From positions 1 through 23,541 of the IMG/VR virus record IMGVR_UViG_3300028548_002631: a DNA stretch of 23,541 nucleotides. One strand, given 5' to 3'. Source of the stretch: a virus. The notes under the pieces were generated by a model. The model was not told where the DNA came from, did no database searches, and saw only the letters and a program-made list of their open reading frames with translations. Shown one piece after another: positions 89 through 23,433 of the stretch; positions within the stretch are counted from its first letter, which is position 1; every line of letters starts with the position of its first letter. The position numbers were made by a program, and so were the translations under genes.

Positions 89-988
89 TTATGCAACTTT
101 CTCCTCTGCTACCTGCATTTCGATTAAACAATCCAAAGACTTCTGAGCTAGGGTGAACGCTTTGGTCAGAGCTTTCTCAGAATCTTCTATTTTTTGAATC
201 CAAGCATTGAGATACTTGGCATGATCTTTTCTAGGAGTCTTGCTAATTCCAAGGTGGGCACATAAGAAGGCTGAACCTATCTCAGCGACTAACTCTTCTG
301 TGGCGTAGTCAAGTCCTTCAGCAACTCTGTTGGTTCGATCCTTGGTCATGCTCCAGTGAGTCAGTTCGTGTAACTTAGTAGAGTAATAATCTAAGTCAGT
401 AAAGAAATCTGTTTTATCAGGCATGGTAATGAAATCCATGAATCTGTCGTAGTAAGCACCATCTTGGCTACCATGCACAATGTGTGCTCCAGTGTTCTCG
501 ATAAACTTTTCAATCATGATGACATCGTTTTGATCTAGTTTAGTTTTGTGCTGTTTGATTGCTTCGAATTTAAAGTCTTCGATTTGTACACCATTAAAAA
601 CAAATGCAAACTTTTGTAAAAGATAAGTGGGTAGTTTTTTTGTTGCTAGGTATTTTGCTTTCTCACCTTCAGTCAACCAAGACACTTTTTTTTCTCTAAG
701 CTCCCAGTAATAAACCTGACTTCCCTTTGAGCCTTTTTTAATTTTATAACCCATGTCACTCCACTGTTTAAAAGTTGCCCACTGGTTGCACTTCCATTCA
801 TTCTTGATAACCTCGCAGTTTAGGTTGAATACATTTCCACCTTTATAGTTTTTCTTGGTTTTCATGTTCATTGGTAATCCGACTTCAACCCAACTCTTAG
901 TCCAGTTGTCGCCTTCTGTTTTCATTAGTTTGATGATGTTGGCTTGCATGTCCTTCATCACATTTGGTTTTATATTTTTTGTTTTCAT
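89..988 (-). CDS. ArdC-like antirestriction protein (N-terminal ssDNA-binding domain plus zincin domain)
   Basis: 299-residue protein with the two-domain layout of the ArdC family. Residues 8-135 match the ArdC N-terminal ssDNA-binding domain, with a W-T/R-K-x-W segment followed by GLP and a Y-x-G-x-N motif. A zincin-like metallopeptidase domain follows, with HELTHW at 207-212 and the typical downstream YATEELVAEIG glutamate motif at about 228-238. ArdC proteins of conjugative plasmids bind ssDNA and protect incoming DNA from type I and II restriction; that role here is inferred. The first in-frame ATG (1003) lies against the -10 box, so I chose ATG 988. That puts the start about 7 nt after the -10 with no Shine-Dalgarno, as in a leaderless mRNA. 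The protein ends in VA-stop with the stop in TAAT, like the genes at 14.9-16.4 kb. Confidence 0.88.
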   Translation of the reverse strand: MKTKNIKPNVMKDMQANIIKLMKTEGDNWTKSWVEVGLPMNMKTKKNYKGGNVFNLNCEVIKNEWKCNQWATFKQWSDMGYKIKKGSKGSQVYYWELREKKVSWLTEGEKAKYLATKKLPTYLLQKFAFVFNGVQIEDFKFEAIKQHKTKLDQNDVIMIEKFIENTGAHIVHGSQDGAYYDRFMDFITMPDKTDFFTDLDYYSTKLHELTHWSMTKDRTNRVAEGLDYATEELVAEIGSAFLCAHLGISKTPRKDHAKYLNAWIQKIEDSEKALTKAFTLAQKSLDCLIEMQVAEEKVA

Positions 989-994
989 ATGTTC

Positions 995-1032
995 ATAATA
1001 CATAGTTTATAAATAATTGCAACTATTTATAC
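995..1032 (-). promoter_or_regulatory. Promoter of the ArdC-like gene (leaderless type)
   Basis: On the minus strand: -35 TTGCAA (1022-1017), 16-bp spacer, -10 TATTAT (1000-995). The next ATG begins 6 bases after the -10 box, so the transcription start should fall on or next to the start codon. Bases 1017-1032 are a copy of the 16-bp upstream element. The spacer contains TTTATAAACTATGT, also found in the spacer of the promoter at 6820-6858. Confidence 0.72.
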
Positions 1033-7250: not shown

Positions 7251-7760
7251 CTACATGTCCTTGGGCGAGTAAGTATCGCTGTCGCCTCCTAAGAGCTTCG
7301 CTAAACGATCCTTAATATCATCCCTTGACATGGCATCAAGGTTGGCATTTATGTTGAGAGATTGAGTCTTATGAACTGATAGTCCTGCGAGTTGATTGAG
7401 CTCCTTGATAGCAGACACAGCGGCATTGAGTTGTCCTGATTCAAACGCTTGTTCAGTGATCTTCCACAACATCGTGCCAGTCTTTTGTGGAGTGATGGCA
7501 TACTTCTCAGCTAACTCATCTTGTTTAATCCTGATAGCTTTGGTGACATGAGGTTGGTCTTTACCATTGAGCATCTTGTTAGCGGCTACGGCTGGAAACT
7601 CATAACCTGCTCGTCTAGCCGCTTCTGTTTGCGAACAAGAACCCTCAGTGTAATGCCACACAAAAGCGTTCTGCATTTCAGTAAGGTTTAACTCAGGGTC
7701 TTTCTCAAACTGCCTTGGAGTATCTGTCAGTGTTGTCTTATCTTTCTTAGGTCTGCCCAA
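7251..7760 (-). CDS. terS: Terminase small subunit
   Basis: Phage DNA-packaging protein that recognises the genome and hands it to the large terminase. The helix-turn-helix region LTEMQNAFVWHYTEGSCSQT then EAARRAGY followed by A-A-N-K-M-L is the standard TerS N-terminal pattern. The C-terminal half has the usual oligomerising helices (AVSAIKELNQLAGL). I place the start at TTG 7760, 169 residues, because GGAG lies seven bases upstream and the protein then opens with GRPKKD, the usual TerS beginning. A GTG at 7835 would add 25 residues but lacks a Shine-Dalgarno and overlaps the upstream gene by 71 bp. The large subunit is not in this window. The adjacent non-coding DNA may hold the recognition site. 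Confidence 0.88.
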   Translation of the reverse strand: MGRPKKDKTTLTDTPRQFEKDPELNLTEMQNAFVWHYTEGSCSQTEAARRAGYEFPAVAANKMLNGKDQPHVTKAIRIKQDELAEKYAITPQKTGTMLWKITEQAFESGQLNAAVSAIKELNQLAGLSVHKTQSLNINANLDAMSRDDIKDRLAKLLGGDSDTYSPKDM

Positions 7761-7764
7761 GACA

Positions 7765-7959
7765 TTACTCCATTCCTTTGTAGATAACTTCGTCTTTCTT
7801 TCTACGATCTTCAAAGACTTTAACTTGTTTGCCACCAGTCAATGTGTGAATCCAATTGTCCTCACCAAATGTGTGCGAGAGACTTACAATTTTATTCTTC
7901 TTCTTTTCTTCTGCTATTTCTTCTCGCCTATCGTCTACCATTTTATTATTCTCAGTCAT
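7765..7959 (-). CDS. Small charged hypothetical protein, 64 residues
   Basis: Not recognised. Very hydrophilic: an acidic and basic N-terminal helix (VDDRREEIAEEKKKNKI), a short strand-like segment with HTFGEDNWIHTLTGG, and a charged tail. AAGGAG is well placed before ATG 7959. The stop is four bases before the TTG of TerS, and this gene's last codons carry the TerS ribosome binding site, so the pair is translationally coupled. A TerS accessory role is only inferred from position. Confidence 0.72.
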   Translation of the reverse strand: MTENNKMVDDRREEIAEEKKKNKIVSLSHTFGEDNWIHTLTGGKQVKVFEDRRKKDEVIYKGME

Positions 7960-8284: not shown

Positions 8285-8452
8285 TTACTTCGAGCCTTCG
8301 TCTTTGATCTTCTTTGGGAGCGTGGTCACAATTACTTGTGCATCACAGTCAGGACAGTGCAAATTAGTTTCCAACACATACTGACCATCTTCATCTTCGA
8401 TGTTTTCGTCTCCACCCCATATGAGGTCGTAATTGCAATGCCAACATTTCAT
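8285..8452 (-). CDS. Zinc-ribbon microprotein, 55 residues
   Basis: The frame starts at ATG 8452, overlapping the stop of the ABC-GNAT gene as ATGA, and ends at TAA 8285. The sequence begins MKCWHCNYDLIWGGDENIED and has CPDC at 33-36. The CxxC...CxxC layout with an IWGGD segment matches a small zinc-ribbon type I recognise from other marine phage genomes, uncharacterised. The Shine-Dalgarno is GGAGAAC within the preceding gene. Its placement directly behind the primase-helicase and ABC-GNAT genes suggests a role in the replication or modification module, but none is demonstrated. Confidence 0.78.
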   Translation of the reverse strand: MKCWHCNYDLIWGGDENIEDEDGQYVLETNLHCPDCDAQVIVTTLPKKIKDEGSK

Positions 8453-9609
8453 GTTTGTTCTCCAAATAAATCTTGTTGTTTATATTCTTCTTTCTTCATC
8501 CAAATAGGATCATAGGATTTATTGTCAGGACCTATGTACTCATGTGAATAGCATATTCTTTCTACATCCAATGTCATATGATGCCATTCTTTCTTCACAT
8601 TCTTTCGTCTTGCCTTCTGTCGATCAACCAAATTGGTAGAAGTAGCTCTCCACAATGGACTGTGTTGTCTGTATTCTCCCATTCTCATGTGTGCTGTCTT
8701 AGAGAAATACCTGTAGCCATCTTCGATGTGTATGTCTGCAATGGCATCTGAAAATCTAACGCCAATGCCAAGACCTTGAAAGTCAGGCAATATCACAGTC
8801 CTACATCCTCTCCATTTCTTTCTAGTATCGCCTTCATACAAGCCTGGTATTTTGCCCGGTAGACTGATGCTTGCTCCGAAGCCTACGAGTTGACCTTCCC
8901 ACACACAACAAAAACACCTAATTGCGTTTGGTATGTTTGCTGTTAGATAGTGATGTTTCGCAAACATTGACCACAAAGATTTATCGCATCGGTATACCTG
9001 AACCTGTATAGGTTGCCGAAGTGACCCCCTTTTTAGCTCTTGAGTGTCAGTACAATACACCCAGTCAGGTTCTAACCAACTAAGTATATCCTCATGACAA
9101 GTCGCTAAAACTATGTTCTTAATGCCCTGTTTCTTTACATACTTTGACAAAGCCACAGAGCAACTTTTGGCTGTCTCTCTATTCACCACCGAAGTAAATT
9201 CATCTATCACAGCGTTGTCCTTAATTTTTCGTGCCATGTCTGCCCTGAATCCCTCGCCATTAGATAATACATGTCTAGGCTTTGCCCAAGATGGAATGGT
9301 GTTGAGTCCAACAGCACTCAGTCTTTGGATTGCATCCTGTTCGTTTACAAAGTGCGATGCAACTGAATGTTTAGGATTCCAATCTAAAACCTCTTCAGTG
9401 CCAAATCTTTTTAGTAAAGTAGACTTGCCACTGCCACTTGAGCCAAAGATAACGCCTATAGAAAAATTGTTTTCTACATCAGGCATCTGTGGCACTTCAA
9501 AAGTTGTTTTGCCTTCGAAGTTGTAATCAAAATTCTTGTAAATAGTTTTATCTATCTCAGTCATTTCGACATTGGATTCTAATATTTCTTTTATTGGTTC
9601 TTCTATCAA
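8449..9609 (-). CDS. ABC-type ATPase fused to a GNAT-fold (acetyltransferase-like) domain
   Basis: 386 residues. The N-terminal half is a soluble ABC ATPase: Walker A GSSGSGKST (56-64), signature LSNGE (115-119), Walker B ending VIDEF (D136, E137) and H-loop H172 in ATCHED. No membrane segment is present, so it is not a transporter. Residues about 203-335 form a GNAT-like domain with LVGFGASI and an acyl-CoA pyrophosphate loop, LPDFQGLGIG (274-283). The layout matches COG2401, described as an ABC ATPase fused to a predicted acetyltransferase. The FAKHHYL segment and domain order also recall Mom, the Mu GNAT-fold DNA-modifying enzyme, so DNA modification against restriction is plausible but inferred. 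TTG 9609 overlaps the primase-helicase stop and has GGAG seven bases upstream. Confidence 0.83.
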   Translation of the reverse strand: MIEEPIKEILESNVEMTEIDKTIYKNFDYNFEGKTTFEVPQMPDVENNFSIGVIFGSSGSGKSTLLKRFGTEEVLDWNPKHSVASHFVNEQDAIQRLSAVGLNTIPSWAKPRHVLSNGEGFRADMARKIKDNAVIDEFTSVVNRETAKSCSVALSKYVKKQGIKNIVLATCHEDILSWLEPDWVYCTDTQELKRGSLRQPIQVQVYRCDKSLWSMFAKHHYLTANIPNAIRCFCCVWEGQLVGFGASISLPGKIPGLYEGDTRKKWRGCRTVILPDFQGLGIGVRFSDAIADIHIEDGYRYFSKTAHMRMGEYRQHSPLWRATSTNLVDRQKARRKNVKKEWHHMTLDVERICYSHEYIGPDNKSYDPIWMKKEEYKQQDLFGEQT

Positions 9610-11762
9610 AACACATCTCCATATTTCTTGTCATTGGTAAAACCATTGTCAGGTTTGTCATATTCTATGTCGTAAACTTTCTTGCCATTGGATCGTCTAG
9701 GTTCGACTCCATTCTGACTGAGGACACGACTAGCCTCTTTAAAGTCAGGCATCCTAGGGTTAGCTATGCCCATGTCTCTAAGTAACTCAGTCATCTGTAC
9801 AGGCTGTGGGTTTTGCGTATCAAATTTTATGTATTGCAACAACAAGTCTTCAACCGATGATTGAGTTCTGTAACCTTCGTTGCTTTCTTGTAACAACTCT
9901 CTTTCATCAGGTGAAAGAAACCAGTTCTTTTGTCCTTGGACATACATCGTTTCTTTGATCTCTGCCCACACTTGTTGCATGTTGATACCATGGTTAAAGT
10001 TTATACCTGTCACTGCGATACACCAAAACCTCCTGTTACCACTGGAATCTGTAAGGAACTCTCTTGCATTGACTGAAGCGTAAAACGCTGTACGCCTTTG
10101 ATAGGTCGTAAACGCCCTGTCGTAGGGCAACCTAAGTTCATCTGTCTTGGCTGTGATAAAGGCTTTGAGCTGATCTATGTCACTCTTCTTAAAGGTAGAC
10201 TCTATCTCACCTAGCTCTACGATCCAGTGACTTACAGCTCTTTTAACTGAGTCCTTGTCACTTGGATTGAGGGTAGCACCCTCCAGTAACCATCCATTGT
10301 TGTAGTCACACAGTCTTTTGAACCACATGGTCTTGCCTAATCCCTGTGCTCCTTGGAACACTAGGATGCCTTCTAACTCGACACCATTTGGCTCATAACA
10401 AGCTGCCACACAACTAATTAACCATTTCTTGAGCAACATGTCTTTCAGAGCTTCAGGTGTACTAGCAGTGATGGTCTTTAAGAACTCATCAATCCTAGAT
10501 GTTCCATCCCAAGGCTTGCTTTCAATCCATTCGATGACAGGGTTGTATTCATTGGCGATCACTTTGAGGTAATCTCTCACCCTAGTGTGTGGCACTCCCA
10601 TCTTGATACAACGATCTTCGATCTCTACCAAACTCGCTTCTTCCTTCATGTCAGCGATAAACTTCATGTGAGGTATCTCTATCTCCATTCTTTTCTTGAT
10701 GACATTGTAATTAACTTGGATGCTGTGGGTTTTCATTACACCTAGAACATTCTCTTTAAGGTTCAACATTCTCCCTTTGTCTGAGGTAACAAAATCGACA
10801 TCTGTGGGAACATCGACAAACTTTAAAGCAGGGATAACTTCGCCACTGATAGCCTTGTGGTCGTTGTAGTCACCTTTTGTTTCAGGCATGTGTACCTCAG
10901 CCATGCCACCTTGCTTAATGATCCACTGACAAGCCTTGACTGCTTCGTTTTCACCTGTCTTAGAGTCATCGTTGTCTGCTACAAAGATGTGTTTGCGATC
11001 TTTAAGTGTCTCAAAAACGCTTTCAGCAACCTTGGATAGGTTGTAAGCATCAAAGGAAACAAACACAGGACATGACATGTCTCGATAAATGTCAGCACAA
11101 GTTGCATAACCTTCACCATAATAAATAGTGTCTGATGTTTTAAGTATTTCTTGTCCAAGAATAAAAAAGCTACCTGCTTTTTTAGAACCAGTAAGAAAAC
11201 GCTTGGTGCCATCGTCAGAGATAAATTGCATACCCACAACAGCCAAGTCATTGTTTAACATAGGAATCATTAACAGTCCTTTGTCATCAACTCTTAACCC
11301 ATAAGACAAAACGCCTTTCTTTTCTAGGTATGGATGTTTCTCACATTTCTCGCCAACTTCCCACATAGACTGACTGCGTTTAGCAGACTTAGAATGTTTC
11401 TCAGCCTTCTTAACTTCTACCTCTGCTTGGAGTCTCTCTATTTCTTCTCTTTCAGTCTTGGTAACTGTCTGTCGTTTGCGATTCTCAGGTTTCCAAATCG
11501 CTGTCGGTTGATCTGTAGACACTCTATAGTCTCCCACCCTTCCAAATGGAACACTTTGATCCATCCACAGTTGGTACCAACCTGACAGCTTCCTCTCACC
11601 ACCTAGGTTAATGTAAGCACGACCAATGCTTCCATCAACCACCAAACCCTTGCGTGGATCAACTTCCATGCCTTGTTCAGATAAAAAACTCGAAAATTGT
11701 GACTGTATATCTCCTGATAAAGGTCGTTCAAAATTCTTGGAAGGTGGTCGTTTTATTTTCAA
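9606..11762 (-). CDS. Toprim primase / VirE-type superfamily 3-like helicase
   Basis: 718-residue replicative protein. The first 90 residues are an N-terminal phage-type module (VDGSIGRAYINLGGE). Residues about 210-310 are a Toprim domain with YGEGYA (E217) and VADNDDS (D263, D265). The C-terminal half is a VirE/VapE-type P-loop helicase with Walker A GAQGLGKT (471-478), Walker B WIVELGEIE (513-521) and SSGNRRFW (573-580). Such proteins synthesise primers and unwind DNA at phage replication forks. No zinc-binding N-terminal domain is visible. The only credible start is TTG 11762, with AGGGAA upstream; the next ATG is residue 32. It is the first gene of its minus-strand operon and overlaps the ABC-GNAT gene by 4 bp. 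Confidence 0.9.
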   Translation of the reverse strand: MKIKRPPSKNFERPLSGDIQSQFSSFLSEQGMEVDPRKGLVVDGSIGRAYINLGGERKLSGWYQLWMDQSVPFGRVGDYRVSTDQPTAIWKPENRKRQTVTKTEREEIERLQAEVEVKKAEKHSKSAKRSQSMWEVGEKCEKHPYLEKKGVLSYGLRVDDKGLLMIPMLNNDLAVVGMQFISDDGTKRFLTGSKKAGSFFILGQEILKTSDTIYYGEGYATCADIYRDMSCPVFVSFDAYNLSKVAESVFETLKDRKHIFVADNDDSKTGENEAVKACQWIIKQGGMAEVHMPETKGDYNDHKAISGEVIPALKFVDVPTDVDFVTSDKGRMLNLKENVLGVMKTHSIQVNYNVIKKRMEIEIPHMKFIADMKEEASLVEIEDRCIKMGVPHTRVRDYLKVIANEYNPVIEWIESKPWDGTSRIDEFLKTITASTPEALKDMLLKKWLISCVAACYEPNGVELEGILVFQGAQGLGKTMWFKRLCDYNNGWLLEGATLNPSDKDSVKRAVSHWIVELGEIESTFKKSDIDQLKAFITAKTDELRLPYDRAFTTYQRRTAFYASVNAREFLTDSSGNRRFWCIAVTGINFNHGINMQQVWAEIKETMYVQGQKNWFLSPDERELLQESNEGYRTQSSVEDLLLQYIKFDTQNPQPVQMTELLRDMGIANPRMPDFKEASRVLSQNGVEPRRSNGKKVYDIEYDKPDNGFTNDKKYGDVF

Positions 11763-12846: not shown

Positions 12847-13612
12847 AGAAGGCGTTTACGAAGATTTATCTTTTAACATATACAACGAGATACCTGCATA
12901 CAGAGCTTCTGATCTCAAGCAAGTAGAACAATGTGTGTACACATGGAAAAACAGATCAGGGTTTTCTGAGTCTCCTGCCTTGTTAGAAGGTCGAGTACAG
13001 CACACAGTGTTTTTAGAGAACCACAAATTTGATGATGAGTTTGTTATTCAACCTATCTTAGATAGAAGAACCAAAATAGGAAAAGAAGCCTACGAAGATT
13101 TTATAGCTACTGTAGGAGATAAAACTGCTATCACACAGGACATGTACGATGTCTGCATGGAGAGAAGAAGCACTGTTGAAGACTTTATACCTAATGGTGA
13201 AAACGATAAGACTGAGCTCACTGTGTGTTACATGTTGCATGGACATCCTTTTAAATCTAGGTTTGATTGGTACGATGGCAAACATGTTTGGGATTTAAAA
13301 ACCTGTCGTGATGCTTCACCTAGAGGCTTTAAACAAGCGATCAATGGGTACAAGTATCATATGCAGGCTTCTCTGTATGTTGATGCCTGTAAATCTGTGG
13401 GATTGCCTGTAGAAGGATTTTCTTTCTTAGCACAGGAAAAGGCTCACCCATATCCTTATGTGGTTTACACCATGTCTGACGAAGCCTTGGAGTATGGTAG
13501 AGCTAAGAACGAGCAGGCTTTGAATACTTTATTGGAAGCAAAAAAGAATAACTCTTACAAGCCTTACAATCTTGATGGCGTGCAAATGGTAGAGCTCACT
13601 GATTTATGGTGA
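12836..13612 (+). CDS. PD-(D/E)XK exonuclease, RecE/RecB-like
   Basis: 258 residues, starting at ATG 12836 behind GAGGAG; a TTG 15 bases earlier is unlikely. It has the layout of phage RecE-type PDDEXK exonucleases: EGRVQHTVFLE with H56, E127 in the TELTV strand, D144 in RFDW, D153 and K155 in VWDLKT, and YHMQASLYVDA with Q177 and Y181, the RecB-family motif. It would degrade one strand of dsDNA to give recombinogenic ends, working with the ssDNA-binding protein two genes upstream. No separate annealase (Redbeta/RecT) is visible. The 3' end overlaps the convergent oxygenase gene by 9 bp, with no terminator between. Confidence 0.88.
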   Translation: MKFKEGVYEDLSFNIYNEIPAYRASDLKQVEQCVYTWKNRSGFSESPALLEGRVQHTVFLENHKFDDEFVIQPILDRRTKIGKEAYEDFIATVGDKTAITQDMYDVCMERRSTVEDFIPNGENDKTELTVCYMLHGHPFKSRFDWYDGKHVWDLKTCRDASPRGFKQAINGYKYHMQASLYVDACKSVGLPVEGFSFLAQEKAHPYPYVVYTMSDEALEYGRAKNEQALNTLLEAKKNNSYKPYNLDGVQMVELTDLW

Positions 13613-14278
13613 TCCATTCTCCATTAACCATTTCATTCTTTTTCGATCATACAACCAAAATACCAACAAATATCTGTCACCCATATCCACAGGTAATCCT
13701 TTGTGCATGTGAGTAAAGCTAGGAAAAATTAGTGCATGACCTGTGGGTAAAGGTGCAACCTCACCATAATTATGAAACTCAGTGCCACCTCCTTCGTACT
13801 TACCAGTGTTCAATGGTATGACCACACTAATGTCTGCTGATTCATCGTGGTGCCAAGCACCTTGTTGCTTGTCTTTTAAATTGTAATTGGCTATTTGCAC
13901 TGATCCTATGTTGGAACAATTGCGTTGCCAAATAGAATAGATGATTGGGTTAAGAACTGTTTGCACCACAAACCACATGTTTCGATAAAGCTCAGGCACT
14001 TGATCTTTTAATACAATCTCAGGTATCTGCCTAAGCTCATCCTCATCATCGTTGGTTTGGAATTTCATTGTTTGGATTTCATCTACTAACATCTTGCAAA
14101 ACTTTCTTCTAAACAATGGCACCTTGTAAATGTCAGGATGTATCTTGGTGATGTGTTTTTTTAAAGGTGTTTCCAACATACGATCTGTGCCATCGCTTGC
14201 TGAAAATTTAGACAGTATAGGCAAAGATTCATCAACTGCTTGATGAGTGCTGTGCATGATTGACCAATGCGATTGCAT
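13604..14278 (-). CDS. 2-oxoglutarate/Fe(II)-dependent oxygenase, prolyl-4-hydroxylase-like
   Basis: 224 residues from ATG 14278; GTG 14314 and ATG 14179 are alternatives and none has a clear Shine-Dalgarno, so the start is unsettled. The iron site is WHHDES (H143 and D145 as HxD), with a distal H192 in HMHKGLPV and R202 in GDRYLLVFW for 2-oxoglutarate. GGGTEFHNY between them is typical of P4H-like double-stranded beta-helix proteins in marine phages. Such enzymes hydroxylate protein or small-molecule substrates; the target here is unknown. The first 40 residues have no family equivalent. It ends the minus-strand small-gene cluster and may be expressed by readthrough from it. Confidence 0.85.
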   Translation of the reverse strand: MQSHWSIMHSTHQAVDESLPILSKFSASDGTDRMLETPLKKHITKIHPDIYKVPLFRRKFCKMLVDEIQTMKFQTNDDEDELRQIPEIVLKDQVPELYRNMWFVVQTVLNPIIYSIWQRNCSNIGSVQIANYNLKDKQQGAWHHDESADISVVIPLNTGKYEGGGTEFHNYGEVAPLPTGHALIFPSFTHMHKGLPVDMGDRYLLVFWLYDRKRMKWLMENGSP

Positions 14279-14332
14279 TGATAACAGGTAGTTATTTAAC
14301 TTATGAATTGTCACATAAGAAGTTTACACGCT

Positions 14333-17045: not shown

Positions 17046-17282
17046 ATGTTTAATAACATCTTTAAAGGGAAACAGTTACCTGTTTCTTATAAAATTGAAC
17101 ACCCCAACGAAATTGTAGAATTGTTTAGTCGATTAACCTTGCATCATCAAACAGCGTTGATAAGATTGATTTCAAGAAATCTTGTTCTAAAGATAGACGA
17201 TGAAGCTATCATGGGTTATGAAATGAGCTTTGATGTAAAAGGTGCTGTGATTCAAGGCACCATTGACGAAGACTTAACTTAG
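17046..17282 (+). CDS. Hypothetical protein, 78 residues
   Basis: ATG 17046 immediately follows the stop of the regulator gene, with no Shine-Dalgarno, so translation is probably coupled. The protein begins MFNNIFKGKQLPVSYKIEHP, then a helix ELFSRLTLHHQTALIRLISR and a beta-rich end (GAVIQGTIDEDL). No family recognised; a partner or modulator of the regulator is a guess from position. Its last 9 bases overlap the convergent 948-residue gene. Confidence 0.65.
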   Translation: MFNNIFKGKQLPVSYKIEHPNEIVELFSRLTLHHQTALIRLISRNLVLKIDDEAIMGYEMSFDVKGAVIQGTIDEDLT

Positions 17283-20120
17283 ACCTGCAATCCCTGTTTT
17301 TCTCATCTGCTGATTCATTGCAATCTCTTGATCTTTTGGATTGGGTAGAAGTGTAGGTGAAGGCATTGTATTTGAGATAGGCTCATCAAACAAAGGTTGA
17401 TCTAGTTGTGGCATTTCAAAGTTTTGCATGGCACCTTGTAGGTCTTCTGTAGGTGAAATAGGTAAAGTAACTGGTTGTTGTTCTACATTATTAAATGACA
17501 TTTCATTTGTTAATGGTGGTTCTATATCAGTTTCTACAGGTTGTTCAATCAAAGGTTGTTCAAAACGAGCTAAGGTTTGTCTAGCTCTATCTAATGAAGA
17601 ACTGCCTGCAAAAGGTTCAGGAGAAGCTAACATTTCTTTTTTAGCCAAAGCAGAAATCATTGTATATTCAGCACTAGAGGGATTAAGTTTAATTTCTTTA
17701 ACTAAAGTAGGAATTACATTTTGTTTAAATTGTTTTACTTTTAAAATTTCATCGTCTGTAAAAAACTCATTAATAATTTCTTTTTCATTGTTAAGAATAT
17801 CATTGTAATTTTTTACTATCATTGATCCATTTGCTTGATTATTGTTATCACCACTAAAAACTTTAGTAAGCACCCCATCTTTTAACAAACTATTAACTTG
17901 AACAAATTGATCTTGTGGCAAAGTGTTTCTAAGTTTAGAAATAACAAGAGGTAACGATTGGTTGGGAGCAAATTTATTTTGTCCAAACAAAAGATTAACT
18001 ACATTTTTAGGCGTGTAATTTTTATTGGTAATTTGTTCAAGTATTTTGTTTGCTGTTTTTTCTCTACGATCTACAATATTTTCTTTGTCTGTTAATCCCA
18101 TGTAATTATTATATAAACCAGTGGCATCCTGTAATTGATCTAGCATTTCTTTATCTTCATTAACAAAACCTTGCTCAAGTTTGTTATAAGTAACACCATC
18201 AAGAACCTCTTTCATTTTAACTAAAGCTGATTGTTCAAAACTTTCAGGACTTGATTTGTTAATATTTGTGCTTAATCTTGTTTGAAAATCATGTATTTTT
18301 TTTAAAGTTTGATCTTTAGATTTTGGGTTTTGACTTTGGTTTAATATTCTTTGCAAAGAAACAACCTCTTGTTGCAAAGGGTTACTTTCTAATTGATTTG
18401 GTGAAAAGATATTTTTATACTCTTGCAAAACATTATTAACAATTTCATTAGAACCTTGTGTAATATCTCCACCAGTAGCAGAAAAAATTATATTTGAATT
18501 AATATCATCAGGGTTTGATCCATATTGTTCTTGTAATTCAAGAGCATCTGACCTTATTTCTCCCAACTGAGCACTATCAAGACCTTTTTTTTCTTCCTCA
18601 TCTCTTTCACGCAACAGTCTTAATAATTCTTCTGTTTGGACATCTGTTTCTGATGCTCTTTCTATTTCACCAATAACCCTTGAAGCTCTTGTTGCTTCCA
18701 ATACAGCAGGATTTTTTAAAGGCTCTAATAATTTTTGCATTTGCCCAATCTTAAAAGCAGTTTCACCAACCAATCGAGGAGAGGTTAATGGTAATCCTGC
18801 TAATGCACTAGGATTAACACCCATTCCCACAACACCTACTGTAGCCATACTTGCACCCTGTAATCCTCTTGGTGCAGCATTGCTTAACGCTTGTCCTGCT
18901 ATTTCTGTTACTAAATCAGGGTCAAGTTTTTTCAACATCTCTAACCTATTTCCATAATTAGTATTTACATTATTACGCATAGCAGATTGCAATTTTCTTA
19001 ATGTGGTTCCTGCGTTGGCTTTTTTACCCAAAGAAAGTTCAGTCATGTATTGTTTTTCTAACTTCATGGCAACTTCATAGTCTTTCATGACTTTTCCATA
19101 CTCAGGAACTTCCTTTAAAATTTGTGCTTTAATGCTATTTCTAATTTCAGAAACCACCATTCCTGAATCTCCTACTGCAAGACCAGTAGGATATTCTGCA
19201 TCTATTCTTCTTTTAAGAATATCCATGCCTTTTGCGTTGTGTAATGCAGGATTGCCTTCCCACTCTTTAACTATTTTTTTTATATCTAATAATTTTTTTT
19301 GTGCTTTTGCTGATAGCTCAGACATTCCTTCAAATTGTTTTGATAACTCAAACCCATTGATGTTGTCTAATGTTTGTTTAAAACTAACAGGACTTTTTTC
19401 TAGTTTTAATTCTGCTTTGCTAGATTTGTAGTTACCTGTTCTTGTATCAGATAAATCTTTCATAGCTTGCAATGCTTTTGGCACAATTTCTTCAGGCAAC
19501 ACATTTCCTCTTAAATTATCTGTAAACAATTTTTGTGTTTCTTTGCTACCTCTTCCTGATTCAACAGCTATTCCAATAGCATCACCACCTGTTCCTGTGG
19601 TAGTGCCTAAAAATGGTTTTACAACACTTCCAATACCCTTGGTGGTTGCACCGATTACTTTGCCAGTGGCTTGAACAGGGTCAATAATGTTTCCCACTTT
19701 AGAAATAGTGGCTGTTGTTCTGCCTGCAACACCGGGTACCTTAGCAGCTAAACCTGCACCTCCTGTAAACACAACAGATATGTCACTTACAATACCCAAA
19801 GGGTCTTCTGCAAACGATTTTTTAAATCCTTCAAAACTTCCATAACGATCTGCAAAAAATTTACCCACTGCTCTTGCAGTTGCTTCATCAGGTTGTTCGC
19901 CTTCAGTGGTAAGTTGATAAATTCCTCTGCCCAAACTAGCCAATGATTGTGCTGTTTGTATAGGGTGTCTAATTGGCATGGTTATATCAGAAACCAATTG
20001 ACCTGCACTCGAAGGTATATTTGAAACTGCTTGCCCTAAAACCTCAGAAATAGGCATAGAATCTTCTTCTTGAGAAGAGTTATTTTTTCTTTGTTCTTCT
20101 AATCTTTCTAATAAAGACAT
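17274..20120 (-). CDS. Large internal virion / DNA-ejection-type protein, 948 residues
   Basis: No catalytic motif recognised. Features: a short charged N-terminus; TMPIRHPIQTAQSLASLGRG and AVGKFFADRYGSFEGFKK at 48-101; Gly/Ala-rich hydrophobic stretches at about 110-132 (VSDISVVFTGGAGLAAKVPG) and about 420-445 (ASMATVGVVGMGVNP); long helical and coiled-coil segments from about 200 to 410 and 600 to 830; and a Pro/Gln/Glu-rich C-terminal tail. This layout, size and AEDPLGIVSD context match internal virion proteins of marine podovirus-type phages that are ejected with DNA. That role is inferred. ATG 20120 follows the upstream stop by two bases, with AGGGATAG as ribosome binding site. The 3' end overlaps a plus-strand gene by 9 bp. 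Confidence 0.8.
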   Translation of the reverse strand: MSLLERLEEQRKNNSSQEEDSMPISEVLGQAVSNIPSSAGQLVSDITMPIRHPIQTAQSLASLGRGIYQLTTEGEQPDEATARAVGKFFADRYGSFEGFKKSFAEDPLGIVSDISVVFTGGAGLAAKVPGVAGRTTATISKVGNIIDPVQATGKVIGATTKGIGSVVKPFLGTTTGTGGDAIGIAVESGRGSKETQKLFTDNLRGNVLPEEIVPKALQAMKDLSDTRTGNYKSSKAELKLEKSPVSFKQTLDNINGFELSKQFEGMSELSAKAQKKLLDIKKIVKEWEGNPALHNAKGMDILKRRIDAEYPTGLAVGDSGMVVSEIRNSIKAQILKEVPEYGKVMKDYEVAMKLEKQYMTELSLGKKANAGTTLRKLQSAMRNNVNTNYGNRLEMLKKLDPDLVTEIAGQALSNAAPRGLQGASMATVGVVGMGVNPSALAGLPLTSPRLVGETAFKIGQMQKLLEPLKNPAVLEATRASRVIGEIERASETDVQTEELLRLLRERDEEEKKGLDSAQLGEIRSDALELQEQYGSNPDDINSNIIFSATGGDITQGSNEIVNNVLQEYKNIFSPNQLESNPLQQEVVSLQRILNQSQNPKSKDQTLKKIHDFQTRLSTNINKSSPESFEQSALVKMKEVLDGVTYNKLEQGFVNEDKEMLDQLQDATGLYNNYMGLTDKENIVDRREKTANKILEQITNKNYTPKNVVNLLFGQNKFAPNQSLPLVISKLRNTLPQDQFVQVNSLLKDGVLTKVFSGDNNNQANGSMIVKNYNDILNNEKEIINEFFTDDEILKVKQFKQNVIPTLVKEIKLNPSSAEYTMISALAKKEMLASPEPFAGSSSLDRARQTLARFEQPLIEQPVETDIEPPLTNEMSFNNVEQQPVTLPISPTEDLQGAMQNFEMPQLDQPLFDEPISNTMPSPTLLPNPKDQEIAMNQQMRKTGIAGLS

Positions 20121-20122
20121 GA

Positions 20123-21343
20123 CTATCCCTGTCTTTCTTTTAACAACTTAATAATTGCATCTCTTTCTTTGTCGTCAGAATTTTGAAACATTTCTTCTAA
20201 CTGGTCATCTGTCATATTTTCATAATCAGCAGTCTGTACCATGTTGTTCATTATGCTATTAAAGTCTAAAACTTTAGATTCATAACCTTTAAGAGTTCTA
20301 TTTTCATTAAAATATGCAATTGCTTCTTCTTTAGCTTTAGCTGCCTCAACAATGGTTGTGTACAATCTTTCTAATCTAGCGATATTCATATCTTCATCAA
20401 GATAGCTATTAAATGCTGCTGCTACCAATCTGTCACCCTCTCTTTCAGTAAACTGTGCACCTAATTTTTCTCTTAATGATTGAAAAACTATGTCTCTAAT
20501 GTCACCTATATAAGAAGCTGCTTTGGGAAATAATATTCCTTTTGCTGAATCAGGCAGTAACCCTATGCCTGGACCTGATACATTTATTTCTCCTTCTTTT
20601 AAAATATTTATTTTTTCAATTAAATTTTCTAAATTTGCTTCAATCTGTGCTTGTCCTTTTGTAGTGTAATCAACTGCAATTTTTGAAAACTCTTGATCTA
20701 TACCCTTTTCAACAACAGACAGGTCAATGTCAGCAGGATTTGATCCTTCTCTTTTACCCTTTGCTTTATTCATTTCTAAAAGATATGCAGCAAAAGGGTC
20801 TGAATTTTTCATTGAATCGAATCTTTTTTTACCCTCATCATCTAAGGCTTCCCTAAAATTAAAATTAGTAATGTCAGCAGTTTGTTTTCCAACACCCATA
20901 GAGCCTTTTGCTAACTCAAATAAACTTTTGTCTAAAAATGCGTTAGCCTTTTGTTCGTCTTGCATAGCCATTTGTGCTGCTTGTAATCCTATTTCTTGTT
21001 TGGCTTTTGCATATGCTTCTTGTTTCTGTTTCATTTCAGCAGAAGCATTAGAAAAACCAACACCTAAACCTGTAAAAGCTGATGCTCCACCTGTGTTAGG
21101 AGTAGACAATAATCCTGCTCCCAACTGAGAAGCCAAATCATAAAACCCCATTCTTGAAGGTTTAGGTATATAAGGCTCTAATCTTTGTTGGTATTTTTCT
21201 ATATTGTCTTCATAGTTTCGAGCTTCAAACCTCTCCATCATTAATTTACGAAGTGCATTAGACTGATCGTCAGTAGCACTTACATCACCACCTGTAGCAA
21301 ATGGATCAATGGATTCAAATATTTGTGATCTACCAATGGTCAT
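20123..21343 (-). CDS. Virion-associated protein, 406 residues, coiled-coil
   Basis: Helical structural-type protein. It opens MTIGRSQIFESIDPFATGGD, then ATDDQSNALRKLMMERFEAR. A Gly/Ala segment FYDLASQLGAGLLS at 67-80 is followed by a long Ala/Gln/Lys-rich coiled coil at 105-145 (KQKQEAYAKAKQEIGLQAAQ). The C-terminal part is acidic and helical, ending KLLKERQG. No enzymatic motif is recognised. It lies between two large structural-type genes, sharing one base with the stop upstream (TAATG), and is probably an internal or scaffold-like head protein. Confidence 0.78.
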   Translation of the reverse strand: MTIGRSQIFESIDPFATGGDVSATDDQSNALRKLMMERFEARNYEDNIEKYQQRLEPYIPKPSRMGFYDLASQLGAGLLSTPNTGGASAFTGLGVGFSNASAEMKQKQEAYAKAKQEIGLQAAQMAMQDEQKANAFLDKSLFELAKGSMGVGKQTADITNFNFREALDDEGKKRFDSMKNSDPFAAYLLEMNKAKGKREGSNPADIDLSVVEKGIDQEFSKIAVDYTTKGQAQIEANLENLIEKINILKEGEINVSGPGIGLLPDSAKGILFPKAASYIGDIRDIVFQSLREKLGAQFTEREGDRLVAAAFNSYLDEDMNIARLERLYTTIVEAAKAKEEAIAYFNENRTLKGYESKVLDFNSIMNNMVQTADYENMTDDQLEEMFQNSDDKERDAIIKLLKERQG

Positions 21344-23433
21344 TAGATTGTATATCCTGCGTTAGTTCTTCGTGGTTGTGCTTGTGGTTGTTTGAAGAAG
21401 TTACCCAAAGCACCCAGTGTGCTTAAACCAACACCTAAACCTGACTGTAAAGCACTTGGTTTTGGAGCAAAAGTTGTAGAAGTTTGGAAAGAACCTGTTG
21501 GTACAGATTGCATAAAAGGTAACAAGGATTGATATTGAGCCAATGGAGCCTGTTGAGCTTGTAGCTGATTAGCTCTAGTTGCATCTAACTGTGCTTGTTG
21601 TTGTTGTTGTTGCATCTGTCCTGATCCCATCAACTGATTGATGTCAAATGCACCTGCTTGTTGAGCTTGACCACCAAGATTCTGTAAGTTAGTACCTAAG
21701 TTTTGTTGTGCTTGTGCTCTTTGTTGACCCATTTGACCTTCTAAACCACCCAAGTTACTCAAAGCACCTGCCTGTGTTTGCTGTGCTCCAAACCTAGTGC
21801 CTGCCAATCTACCAAGATTAGATGCTAAACCTTGTTGTGCACCTAATTGTTGTCCTGCAAAGCCTGAGAGTTGATTGGTTAAGTTTTGTTGTGATCCTAG
21901 TCTTGAGCCTGCCAAACCTGATAAGCCTTGTGATGTCGCCATCTCTTGTGCTCTTTGTCTTGCAAATTCGTTTAAACCTGCTGATTGAGCTTGTCCAAAA
22001 CCTTGTGCACGCAAAGAACCTAAAGACTGACCTAAACCTCTACCTAGAGCTTCACGCCTTTCTTCAGCACTTAAACGAGCTCTTGAGCCAAAAGCTGACT
22101 CTCCACCTGTTTGTATGTCTCTAGCTCTTTGAGCCATGTCTTGTTTCTCACCTGCTTTAAAAACATCTTCAATGGTTTGATCTACCACTTGTTGTTCGTA
22201 TGGGTTGTAGAACTGTGAGGTTAAAGACTGGTCGTAACCACCTAAACTACCCCTTAGAAGGTTCTCAGACTCGCCTAAACGATTGCCAAACTCATCTGTG
22301 GCACCTATGCTACGACCTGCTAAACCACCTAACTGAGTGCCAAAGTTACCTGTAGCACCTCTTTGTATGTTTTCTACATCAGATAGTTCTCTACCAAGCG
22401 AGCCTACACCACCTTGTATGACACCCAATGACTCTAATTCTCTTTGTCTTGCTCTGTCTAAGCCTGAGCCTAGTTCTCCAACACTTGAACGAAAAGCAGA
22501 TTGAGCATCACCCAAATACTGATCTTGTATGCCAGTAGCTCCTCTTGCCATCTCCATGGCTCTTTGTTGGTCAGGAGTTAACCCTGCAATTTCTTGATCT
22601 ACAACTCTAGGTGTTCCATCAGGATTAAAGAAGGAAGTCTCAGCTGCTTGCATTGCACCCGGTATGAATCCACCCTTACCATCTAAACCAAAGAGTAATT
22701 GTTGGCTCAGAGCATCTAAGCCTGTCTCGTTTCTTTGTTGATTGCTAACATATGGAGCAGGATCATTGCCACCTGTGTAGGGTGCAAGAGGTTGTTGTAC
22801 AGGAGCAGTTGGTTGTACAGGAGCAGTAGTTTGTACAGGTGCTTGTTGTACAGGAGCAGTAGTGTTTGAATCTATTGGTCTAGGACCAGGCAAACGACCT
22901 TCAAAACCACCATCATAAAACCCAGGGGTTCCACCTGCGTATACTGGAGGTGGATTAAGACCCATTGATGGAGGTAGATTACCAGTCATAATTGTGCCAT
23001 CAGGATTTCTAACAGGCATAGTAGTGATACGATTATTAGTTGGATTTTGTGCCTCTTCTGCCATTGCTCTGTTTAACATATCTTGTTGTAAAATATTTCT
23101 TTCAGAAGTTTGTTGTGCTAATAATTCTTGATTTTGAGGTACTTGTGGCATCATTTGTTGTTGAGCTTGAGCCTGTTCTATCATGTCTTGAAAGCCTTGA
23201 GGATTAGCGTTTATAGCTCTTGGATCAAAGTTACTAAAATCCATACCCATAGGTAAATTAGAAAAATCTATGTTCTGTAAACCGGGTATACCACCTATGC
23301 CTTGTAAGTTTGGCATGTTTGATATGTTAGGCATAACAGAAGGTCTTATTTGTGGCATGTTGCCTATATTGCCAAATAAACCACTGCTAGGCTTTCTTTC
23401 CATGCCATCTCTAAATCTGTCAAATATTCCCAT
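21343..23433 (-). CDS. Gln/Gly/Ala-rich repeat structural protein, 696 residues
   Basis: Low-complexity virion-type protein. Residues 1-110 are Pro/Asn/Gln-rich. Residues 193-213 carry three-fold APVQ repeats. Residues 300-400 have loose Gly-rich repeats. Residues about 504-578 contain four 18-21 residue repeats (LSGLAGSRLGSQQNLTNQ and relatives), and a six-Gln run follows near 607. The C-terminus is LGVGLSTLGALGNFFKQ, a hydrophobic helix. Repetitive Gln/Gly proteins of this type occur in marine phage structural modules; whether this is a fibre, scaffold or ejection protein is not decided. ATG 23433 lacks a strong Shine-Dalgarno; it follows the stop of the upstream partial gene by nine bases. 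Confidence 0.8.
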   Translation of the reverse strand: MGIFDRFRDGMERKPSSGLFGNIGNMPQIRPSVMPNISNMPNLQGIGGIPGLQNIDFSNLPMGMDFSNFDPRAINANPQGFQDMIEQAQAQQQMMPQVPQNQELLAQQTSERNILQQDMLNRAMAEEAQNPTNNRITTMPVRNPDGTIMTGNLPPSMGLNPPPVYAGGTPGFYDGGFEGRLPGPRPIDSNTTAPVQQAPVQTTAPVQPTAPVQQPLAPYTGGNDPAPYVSNQQRNETGLDALSQQLLFGLDGKGGFIPGAMQAAETSFFNPDGTPRVVDQEIAGLTPDQQRAMEMARGATGIQDQYLGDAQSAFRSSVGELGSGLDRARQRELESLGVIQGGVGSLGRELSDVENIQRGATGNFGTQLGGLAGRSIGATDEFGNRLGESENLLRGSLGGYDQSLTSQFYNPYEQQVVDQTIEDVFKAGEKQDMAQRARDIQTGGESAFGSRARLSAEERREALGRGLGQSLGSLRAQGFGQAQSAGLNEFARQRAQEMATSQGLSGLAGSRLGSQQNLTNQLSGFAGQQLGAQQGLASNLGRLAGTRFGAQQTQAGALSNLGGLEGQMGQQRAQAQQNLGTNLQNLGGQAQQAGAFDINQLMGSGQMQQQQQQAQLDATRANQLQAQQAPLAQYQSLLPFMQSVPTGSFQTSTTFAPKPSALQSGLGVGLSTLGALGNFFKQPQAQPRRTNAGYTI
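21700..21924 (-). repeat. Four imperfect 18-21 residue coding repeats
   Basis: Within the 696-residue protein, tandem units LSGLAGSRLGSQQNLTNQ, LSGFAGQQLGAQQGLASN, LGRLAGTRFGAQQTQAGA and LSNLGGLEGQMGQQRAQAQQ share L-x-x-L/F-A/G-G...Q-Q. The exact 18-residue period of the first three points to repeated helical or solenoid-like turns. Confidence 0.75.
22795..22857 (-). repeat. APVQ tandem repeat in coding DNA
   Basis: Short Pro/Gln repeats (APVQ followed by 1-4 residues, four copies) from near-identical DNA units containing TGTACAGGAGCAGT on the plus strand. Such direct repeats are prone to slippage, so copy number may vary between relatives. Confidence 0.7.

Follow-up and report, generated by a model that had tools for sequence, protein, structure and literature searches.

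A phage gene encoding a fused ABC ATPase and GNAT domain as a further member of a family predicted to acylate a DNA base

In phages such as Tenacibaculum phage pT24, a GNAT domain is coupled with an ABC ATPase, and such pairs were predicted in 2013 to give a DNA base an acyl modification, itself uncharacterised (Iyer et al., doi 10.1093/nar/gkt573, as restated in PMC7824862). Phage GNATs that target RNA polymerase are also on record (PMC7824862). No experiment was found in the literature for any member of the ABC ATPase-GNAT family, and DNA-base acylation by members of PHROG 11143, a group of unknown function, is a prediction. The protein described here, from a marine phage, matches PHROG 11143 almost end to end (3e-104; residues 11-364 of 386 against positions 6-354 of 357 in the profile), and pT24 is a direct tblastn match (34.5% identity over 92%). 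Since the published prediction names pT24, a direct homologue, the hypothesis of DNA-base acylation is not new; judged by its sequence, the gene is a further member of the known ABC ATPase-GNAT family predicted to acylate a DNA base. Relatives are encoded in 190 viral stretches, 51 phage records, and 409 cellular-genome stretches, and this abundance, together with the full-length PHROG match, argues against a chance observation. Most of the cellular relatives are from Planctomycetota; L106, the only one of them looked at closely, belongs to a prophage, where the gene lies beside terminase and portal genes. The pT24 homologue itself (L083:3986-5158) is interrupted by a single in-frame stop and hence annotated as two CDS; the stop may represent a sequencing error, decay, or readthrough.

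The window, i.e., the whole stretch of DNA that was analysed, is the entire 23.5-kb IMG/VR record. Its ABC ATPase-GNAT gene (8449..9609, minus strand) encodes 386 amino acids from a TTG start that is preceded by a GGAG ribosome-binding sequence. The initial annotation had recognised a fusion of an ABC ATPase with a GNAT-like domain, which is borne out, but its range (8620-9609) omits 171 bases, the last ~56 amino acids; an alignment of relatives shows that this omitted C-terminus carries the conserved motif YSHEY(I/V)G. It had also placed the gene in an operon with a primase-helicase and a zinc-ribbon microprotein, and both junctions were found: the start overlaps the stop of the upstream Toprim/VapE primase-helicase gene (9606..11762, minus strand; PF05272, 3.9e-53) by 4 nt (TTGA), and the stop overlaps the start of the downstream gene for the 55-aa zinc-ribbon microprotein (8285..8452, minus strand) by 4 nt (ATGA). 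The gene is translationally coupled to the VapE-type primase upstream and the zinc-ribbon microprotein downstream. Shortly downstream lies the terminase small subunit gene (7251..7835, minus strand; PF03592, 1.1e-5; phrog_51, 1.6e-10). An ArdC-like protein, which had been brought forward in favour of DNA modification, is present as well (89-1003, minus strand; an ArdC N-terminal domain, PF08401, 1.8e-21, with an MPTase-PolyVal zincin of the anti-restriction type, 3.9e-36), but it is a weak argument, as it indicates anti-restriction generally and not a role of the ABC ATPase-GNAT gene. Elsewhere on the minus strand, the window encodes a 2OG-Fe(II) oxygenase (13604-14314; phrog_61, 9e-31) and three big proteins of 948, 406, and 696 amino acids with no Pfam matches (17274-23433).

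Pfam returned weak P-loop and GNAT signals only for the ABC ATPase-GNAT protein. Its AlphaFold2 model (pLDDT 84.5) aligns to ABC ATPases over residues 5-197 (9019..9597, minus strand; 1l2t, 6xji, and others by VIA-align, Z 12-13.7) and to GNAT acyltransferases over residues 199-366 (8512..9015, minus strand). All the motifs pointed out earlier were found, on the same strand, with core residues that vary little or not at all over 29 diverse relatives, down to 34% identity. In the ATPase these are Walker A GSSGSGKST (residues 56-64, 9418..9444; G56, S58, G59, G61, and K62 invariant), the ABC signature LSNGE (115-119, 9253..9267; S116 and G118 invariant), Walker B VIDEF (134-138, 9196..9210; D136 and E137 invariant), and the H-loop histidine H172 (9094..9096; invariant). 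In the GNAT domain, FAKHHYL (216-222, 8944..8964) closes helix 1, with F216, H220, Y221, and L222 invariant and H219 nearly so, and the acyl-CoA pyrophosphate loop is LPDFQGLGIG (274-283, 8761..8790; P275, D276, Q278, G279, G281, and G283 invariant). Both hallmarks of the GNAT superfamily are thus present, namely, the fold (Z up to 12.9) and a Q/R-x-x-G-x-G/A acyl-CoA loop with an invariant core, and the identities of the two domains are secure. Over the 29 members, the mean charge is +12 for the GNAT half, in which a basic loop is present, and -7 for the ABC half. The ATPase lacks a membrane part, as had been noted, and no membrane domain was matched in the protein or in the adjacent genes.

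In relatives, the gene neighbourhoods support nucleic-acid modification. Outside the window's clade, nearly every relative has a ParB-fold gene immediately upstream, with hits in 91 of 110 loci in the set L067-L176 and in each of the 89 loci L190-L278; it usually overlaps the ABC-GNAT gene by about 20 nt. Pfam PF02195 was confirmed on several of these upstream genes, and among the families that the partners match best is the N-terminal part of ParB-DNA methyltransferase fusions (phrog_498, 1.3e-53; PADLOC MTase_II, 6.9e-44). The ParB fold is described as a nucleotide-binding switch that in phages is often fused to DNA methyltransferases (PMC12704722). Outside the ParB domain, the partners (L070:1950-2519 and similar) have a conserved C-terminal tail, V-x-C-x-x-E-x-E-Q ... 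G-x-K-C-R-V. PF02195/ParB was found in none of the 42 records of the window's clade (the window and 41 related records, which may be fragments, although some exceed 50 kb), so that the argument from ParB context does not extend to the window. In the tree, the marine set forms one fully supported clade with Aeromonas phage PX29, all members of which are without ParB; some of the remaining tips that lack ParB come from the end of a contig. Genes of the Mom family are present in six of the 42 records of the window's clade, and in three loci such a gene (PF25680, 1.7e-33; L019:3387-4025, L022:443-1081, and L025:5339-5977) shares 4 nt with the start of the ABC-GNAT gene, whose product has 77-78% identity to the window protein in these loci. 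These three operons each hold two GNAT-fold modification candidates. A Dam-type MethyltransfD12 gene lies upstream of the family gene in L050-L052, and an ASCH gene lies downstream in Streptococcus and Oenococcus phages and in L078.

The parallel with Mu Mom that had been drawn for the C-terminal half stands as a functional analogy, but not as membership. PF25680 is absent from the Pfam matches of the window protein up to E = 1, while the neighbouring Mom in L025 scores 1.7e-33; profile-profile alignment (hhalign) of the GNAT half with a nine-member Mom alignment was not significant (probability 3.2%, E 0.013). This weak alignment places HHYL on the invariant H58-Y59 of Mom, but where the family has the canonical Q-x-G-x-G loop, Mom has PRNSES, and the acyl donors are therefore probably used differently. 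With no Pfam match, no significant profile match, and a different catalytic loop, the GNAT half is ruled out as a member of Mom. The structural comparison proposed beforehand was run and ended in a tie: Mu Mom (8bv8) aligns with the GNAT half at Z 11.6 (156 aligned, 14% identity) and ordinary acetyltransferases at Z 11.4-12.9, e.g., RimI or Naa50 at Z 12.3-12.6 over about 135 residues, with equally good matches to N-terminal protein, polyamine, and aminoglycoside acetyltransferases. Because of this tie, the structure comparison cannot decide the substrate. The top Foldseek matches of the GNAT half include the ATPase-GNAT protein TmcA (PDB 2zpa, tRNA(Met) cytidine acetyltransferase), so that the earlier remark that ATP-dependent coupling of a GNAT to DNA would be unusual was too strong; a 90S pre-ribosome chain, probably Kre33, is also among the top fold matches. 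Homology to TmcA was dropped, as hhalign gave no profile support (probability 0.5%). DruA (PF14236, DUF4338) was ruled out, being absent from the Pfam matches of the window protein up to E = 1; PF14236 had no match anywhere in 20 host genomes either, which is uninformative. Membership in a defence system was likewise rejected: PADLOC returned weak matches to the ATPase only for the window protein (mad8, 0.0017; AbiLi, 0.0032), and for relatives mad3 matches to the ATPase part at about 2e-10 to 2e-11, with no match covering the GNAT.

With respect to function, the evidence best supports a soluble GNAT acyltransferase that works on phage DNA and depends on ATP; slightly better than even chances are given to this reading, and DNA is the likely substrate of the window protein. 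DNA modification, as put forward in the initial annotation, has the published prediction for the family behind it (PMC7824862), while its link to Mom is one of analogy. Several lines of evidence lead to this reading, namely, the homology to the pT24 system with intact ATP and acyl-CoA motifs fused in one protein; the overlapping ParB-fold partner in most relatives and the Mom, Dam-type, and ASCH neighbours in others; the coupling to a primase-helicase, the position shortly before the terminase genes, and the lack of a membrane part; and the basic GNAT half with the precedent of TmcA among the fold matches. It should be kept in mind that neighbours of DNA-modification genes need not modify DNA. 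The GNAT might instead modify a host or phage protein, e.g., RNA polymerase, the ribosome, or a defence protein, with the ABC head regulating or presenting the target. Indeed, most of the nearest solved folds are GNATs for proteins or small molecules, there are phage GNATs with RNA polymerase as their target (PMC7824862), and hhalign favours RimI (35%) over Mom (3%), because the CoA loop is common to RimI and the family. However, this would leave unexplained why a ParB-fold partner overlaps the gene and why Mom, Dam-type, and ASCH genes lie adjacent, and a protein target is considered rather unlikely.

An RNA base, acetylated in tRNA or mRNA by a TmcA-like ATPase-GNAT, is judged unlikely: TmcA and the 90S pre-ribosome chain rank near the top in the fold search with the GNAT half and some neighbours have the ASCH fold, which includes the E. 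coli N4-acetylcytidine amidohydrolase, but there is no TmcA sequence-profile match, and the ParB partner and the gene order beside primase and terminase indicate DNA. Fold matches to small-molecule GNATs would also suit an ATP-dependent acylation of a nucleotide precursor or other small molecule, including the inactivation of a defence signal. This is regarded as improbable, given the ParB partner and the modification-gene neighbours; moreover, ABC heads usually move polymers or partner proteins, and a small-molecule GNAT would presumably need none. Many phage records label such proteins as ABC transporter ATPases, which the canonical ABC motifs and the fold of a transporter NBD would justify; yet neither the protein nor its neighbours (a primase and a zinc ribbon are adjacent) contain a membrane domain, and a GNAT is fused or overlapping across the whole family, which makes a transporter highly implausible.

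If the protein is a DNA acyltransferase, the acyl group of an acyl-CoA would most likely be added to the exocyclic amine of a DNA base before packaging, yielding an N-acyl base, and the acylated genome would be shielded from host restriction, anti-restriction being the presumed purpose. ATP-driven dimerisation of the ABC heads may clamp or scan the DNA and gate the GNAT, whose basic face would bind DNA. In the window's clade, in which no ParB partner was found, the fused protein alone probably suffices.

Of 176 loci, 170 have both domains in one frame. Oenococcus and Thomasclavelia phages, as well as a lineage made up of Streptococcus and metagenomic phages, instead have a GNAT in frame -1 that overlaps the ATPase in frame 0 by 94-112 nt (split-frame loci L085, L088-L091, L190, L197, L199, and L201-L208). 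Most split loci have no ATG, GTG, or TTG in the -1 frame before the HYL motif, and a T4-T7 run near the start of the overlap is followed by a hairpin. The mean z of the 70-nt fold is -3.3 in 15 split loci, which are mutually related, versus -0.10 (sd 0.79) for the corresponding stretch of 79 fused relatives. The stem covaries (CCCCAC/GTGGGG, GCCCAC/GTGGGC, AGCCAC/GTGGCA, or GCCCAC with a second GTGGGC further in); the slip site of members with T5 is not a canonical heptamer. It is likely that the split loci employ a programmed -1 ribosomal frameshift, which is absent from the window. In the Thomasclavelia phage, no frameshift is needed, because its -1 frame has start codons; Oenococcus L090 has no hairpin by fold (z +1.3) and has the canonical AAAGGGC slip motif. 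In two loci of a mostly fused lineage (L217:1889-2981 and L219:2138-3228), the ATPase and GNAT parts meet at an A11-A12 run, which ends in an in-frame stop in one of them and can be read as polymerase slippage or an assembly error. A more elaborate and tentative picture, held at well below even chances, is that of an ATP-gated DNA base acyltransferase machine, composed of a ParB-fold NTP switch and the ABC-GNAT protein, that would make an N-acyl base distinct from the product of Mom and sometimes alongside it; one lineage would set the ratio of free ATPase to fusion by the programmed -1 frameshift, and the window's clade would use a constitutive fusion without ParB.

If DNA acylation holds true, the DNA modification would be one never yet measured, made by a gene common in phages and prophages through an ATP-driven mechanism unlike that of Mom, and this could explain restriction evasion in many phages. 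Cultured phages of Gordonia, Rhodococcus, Streptococcus, Nonlabens, and Aeromonas carry a family gene, which makes the 2013 prediction directly testable, and the frameshift signal in relatives is a testable control of domain stoichiometry. In Nonlabens phage P12024S, the gene is fused and no ParB gene was seen next to it; Gordonia phage Jace has ParB. The locus is of interest because the family can be put to the test, ParB is absent from the window's clade, Mom genes lie adjacent in some relatives, and other relatives show the probable frameshift.

Compared with known systems, Mu Mom (PF25680, PDB 8bv8) is similar to the family in its GNAT fold, the H-Y after helix 1, and its nature as a phage gene, and a Mom-type gene adjoins the family gene in some phages; it differs in having no ATPase, a PRNSES-type loop, and no significant sequence-profile similarity. 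RimI and other canonical GNATs share the fold and the acyl-CoA loop but are without an ATPase, and the family's invariant HHYL and C-terminal YSHEYIG lie outside the RimI match. TmcA and Kre33-NAT10 likewise combine an ATPase with a GNAT that acts on a nucleic-acid base, but their ATPase is of the helicase type, not ABC, their substrate is RNA, and there is no profile match. The pT24 system has the same two domains in the same order, with full-length homology; in comparison with it, the window protein is 34.5% identical, no ParB-fold gene was found in its clade, and the genes coupled to its own are, in place of ParB, those of a primase-helicase and a zinc ribbon.
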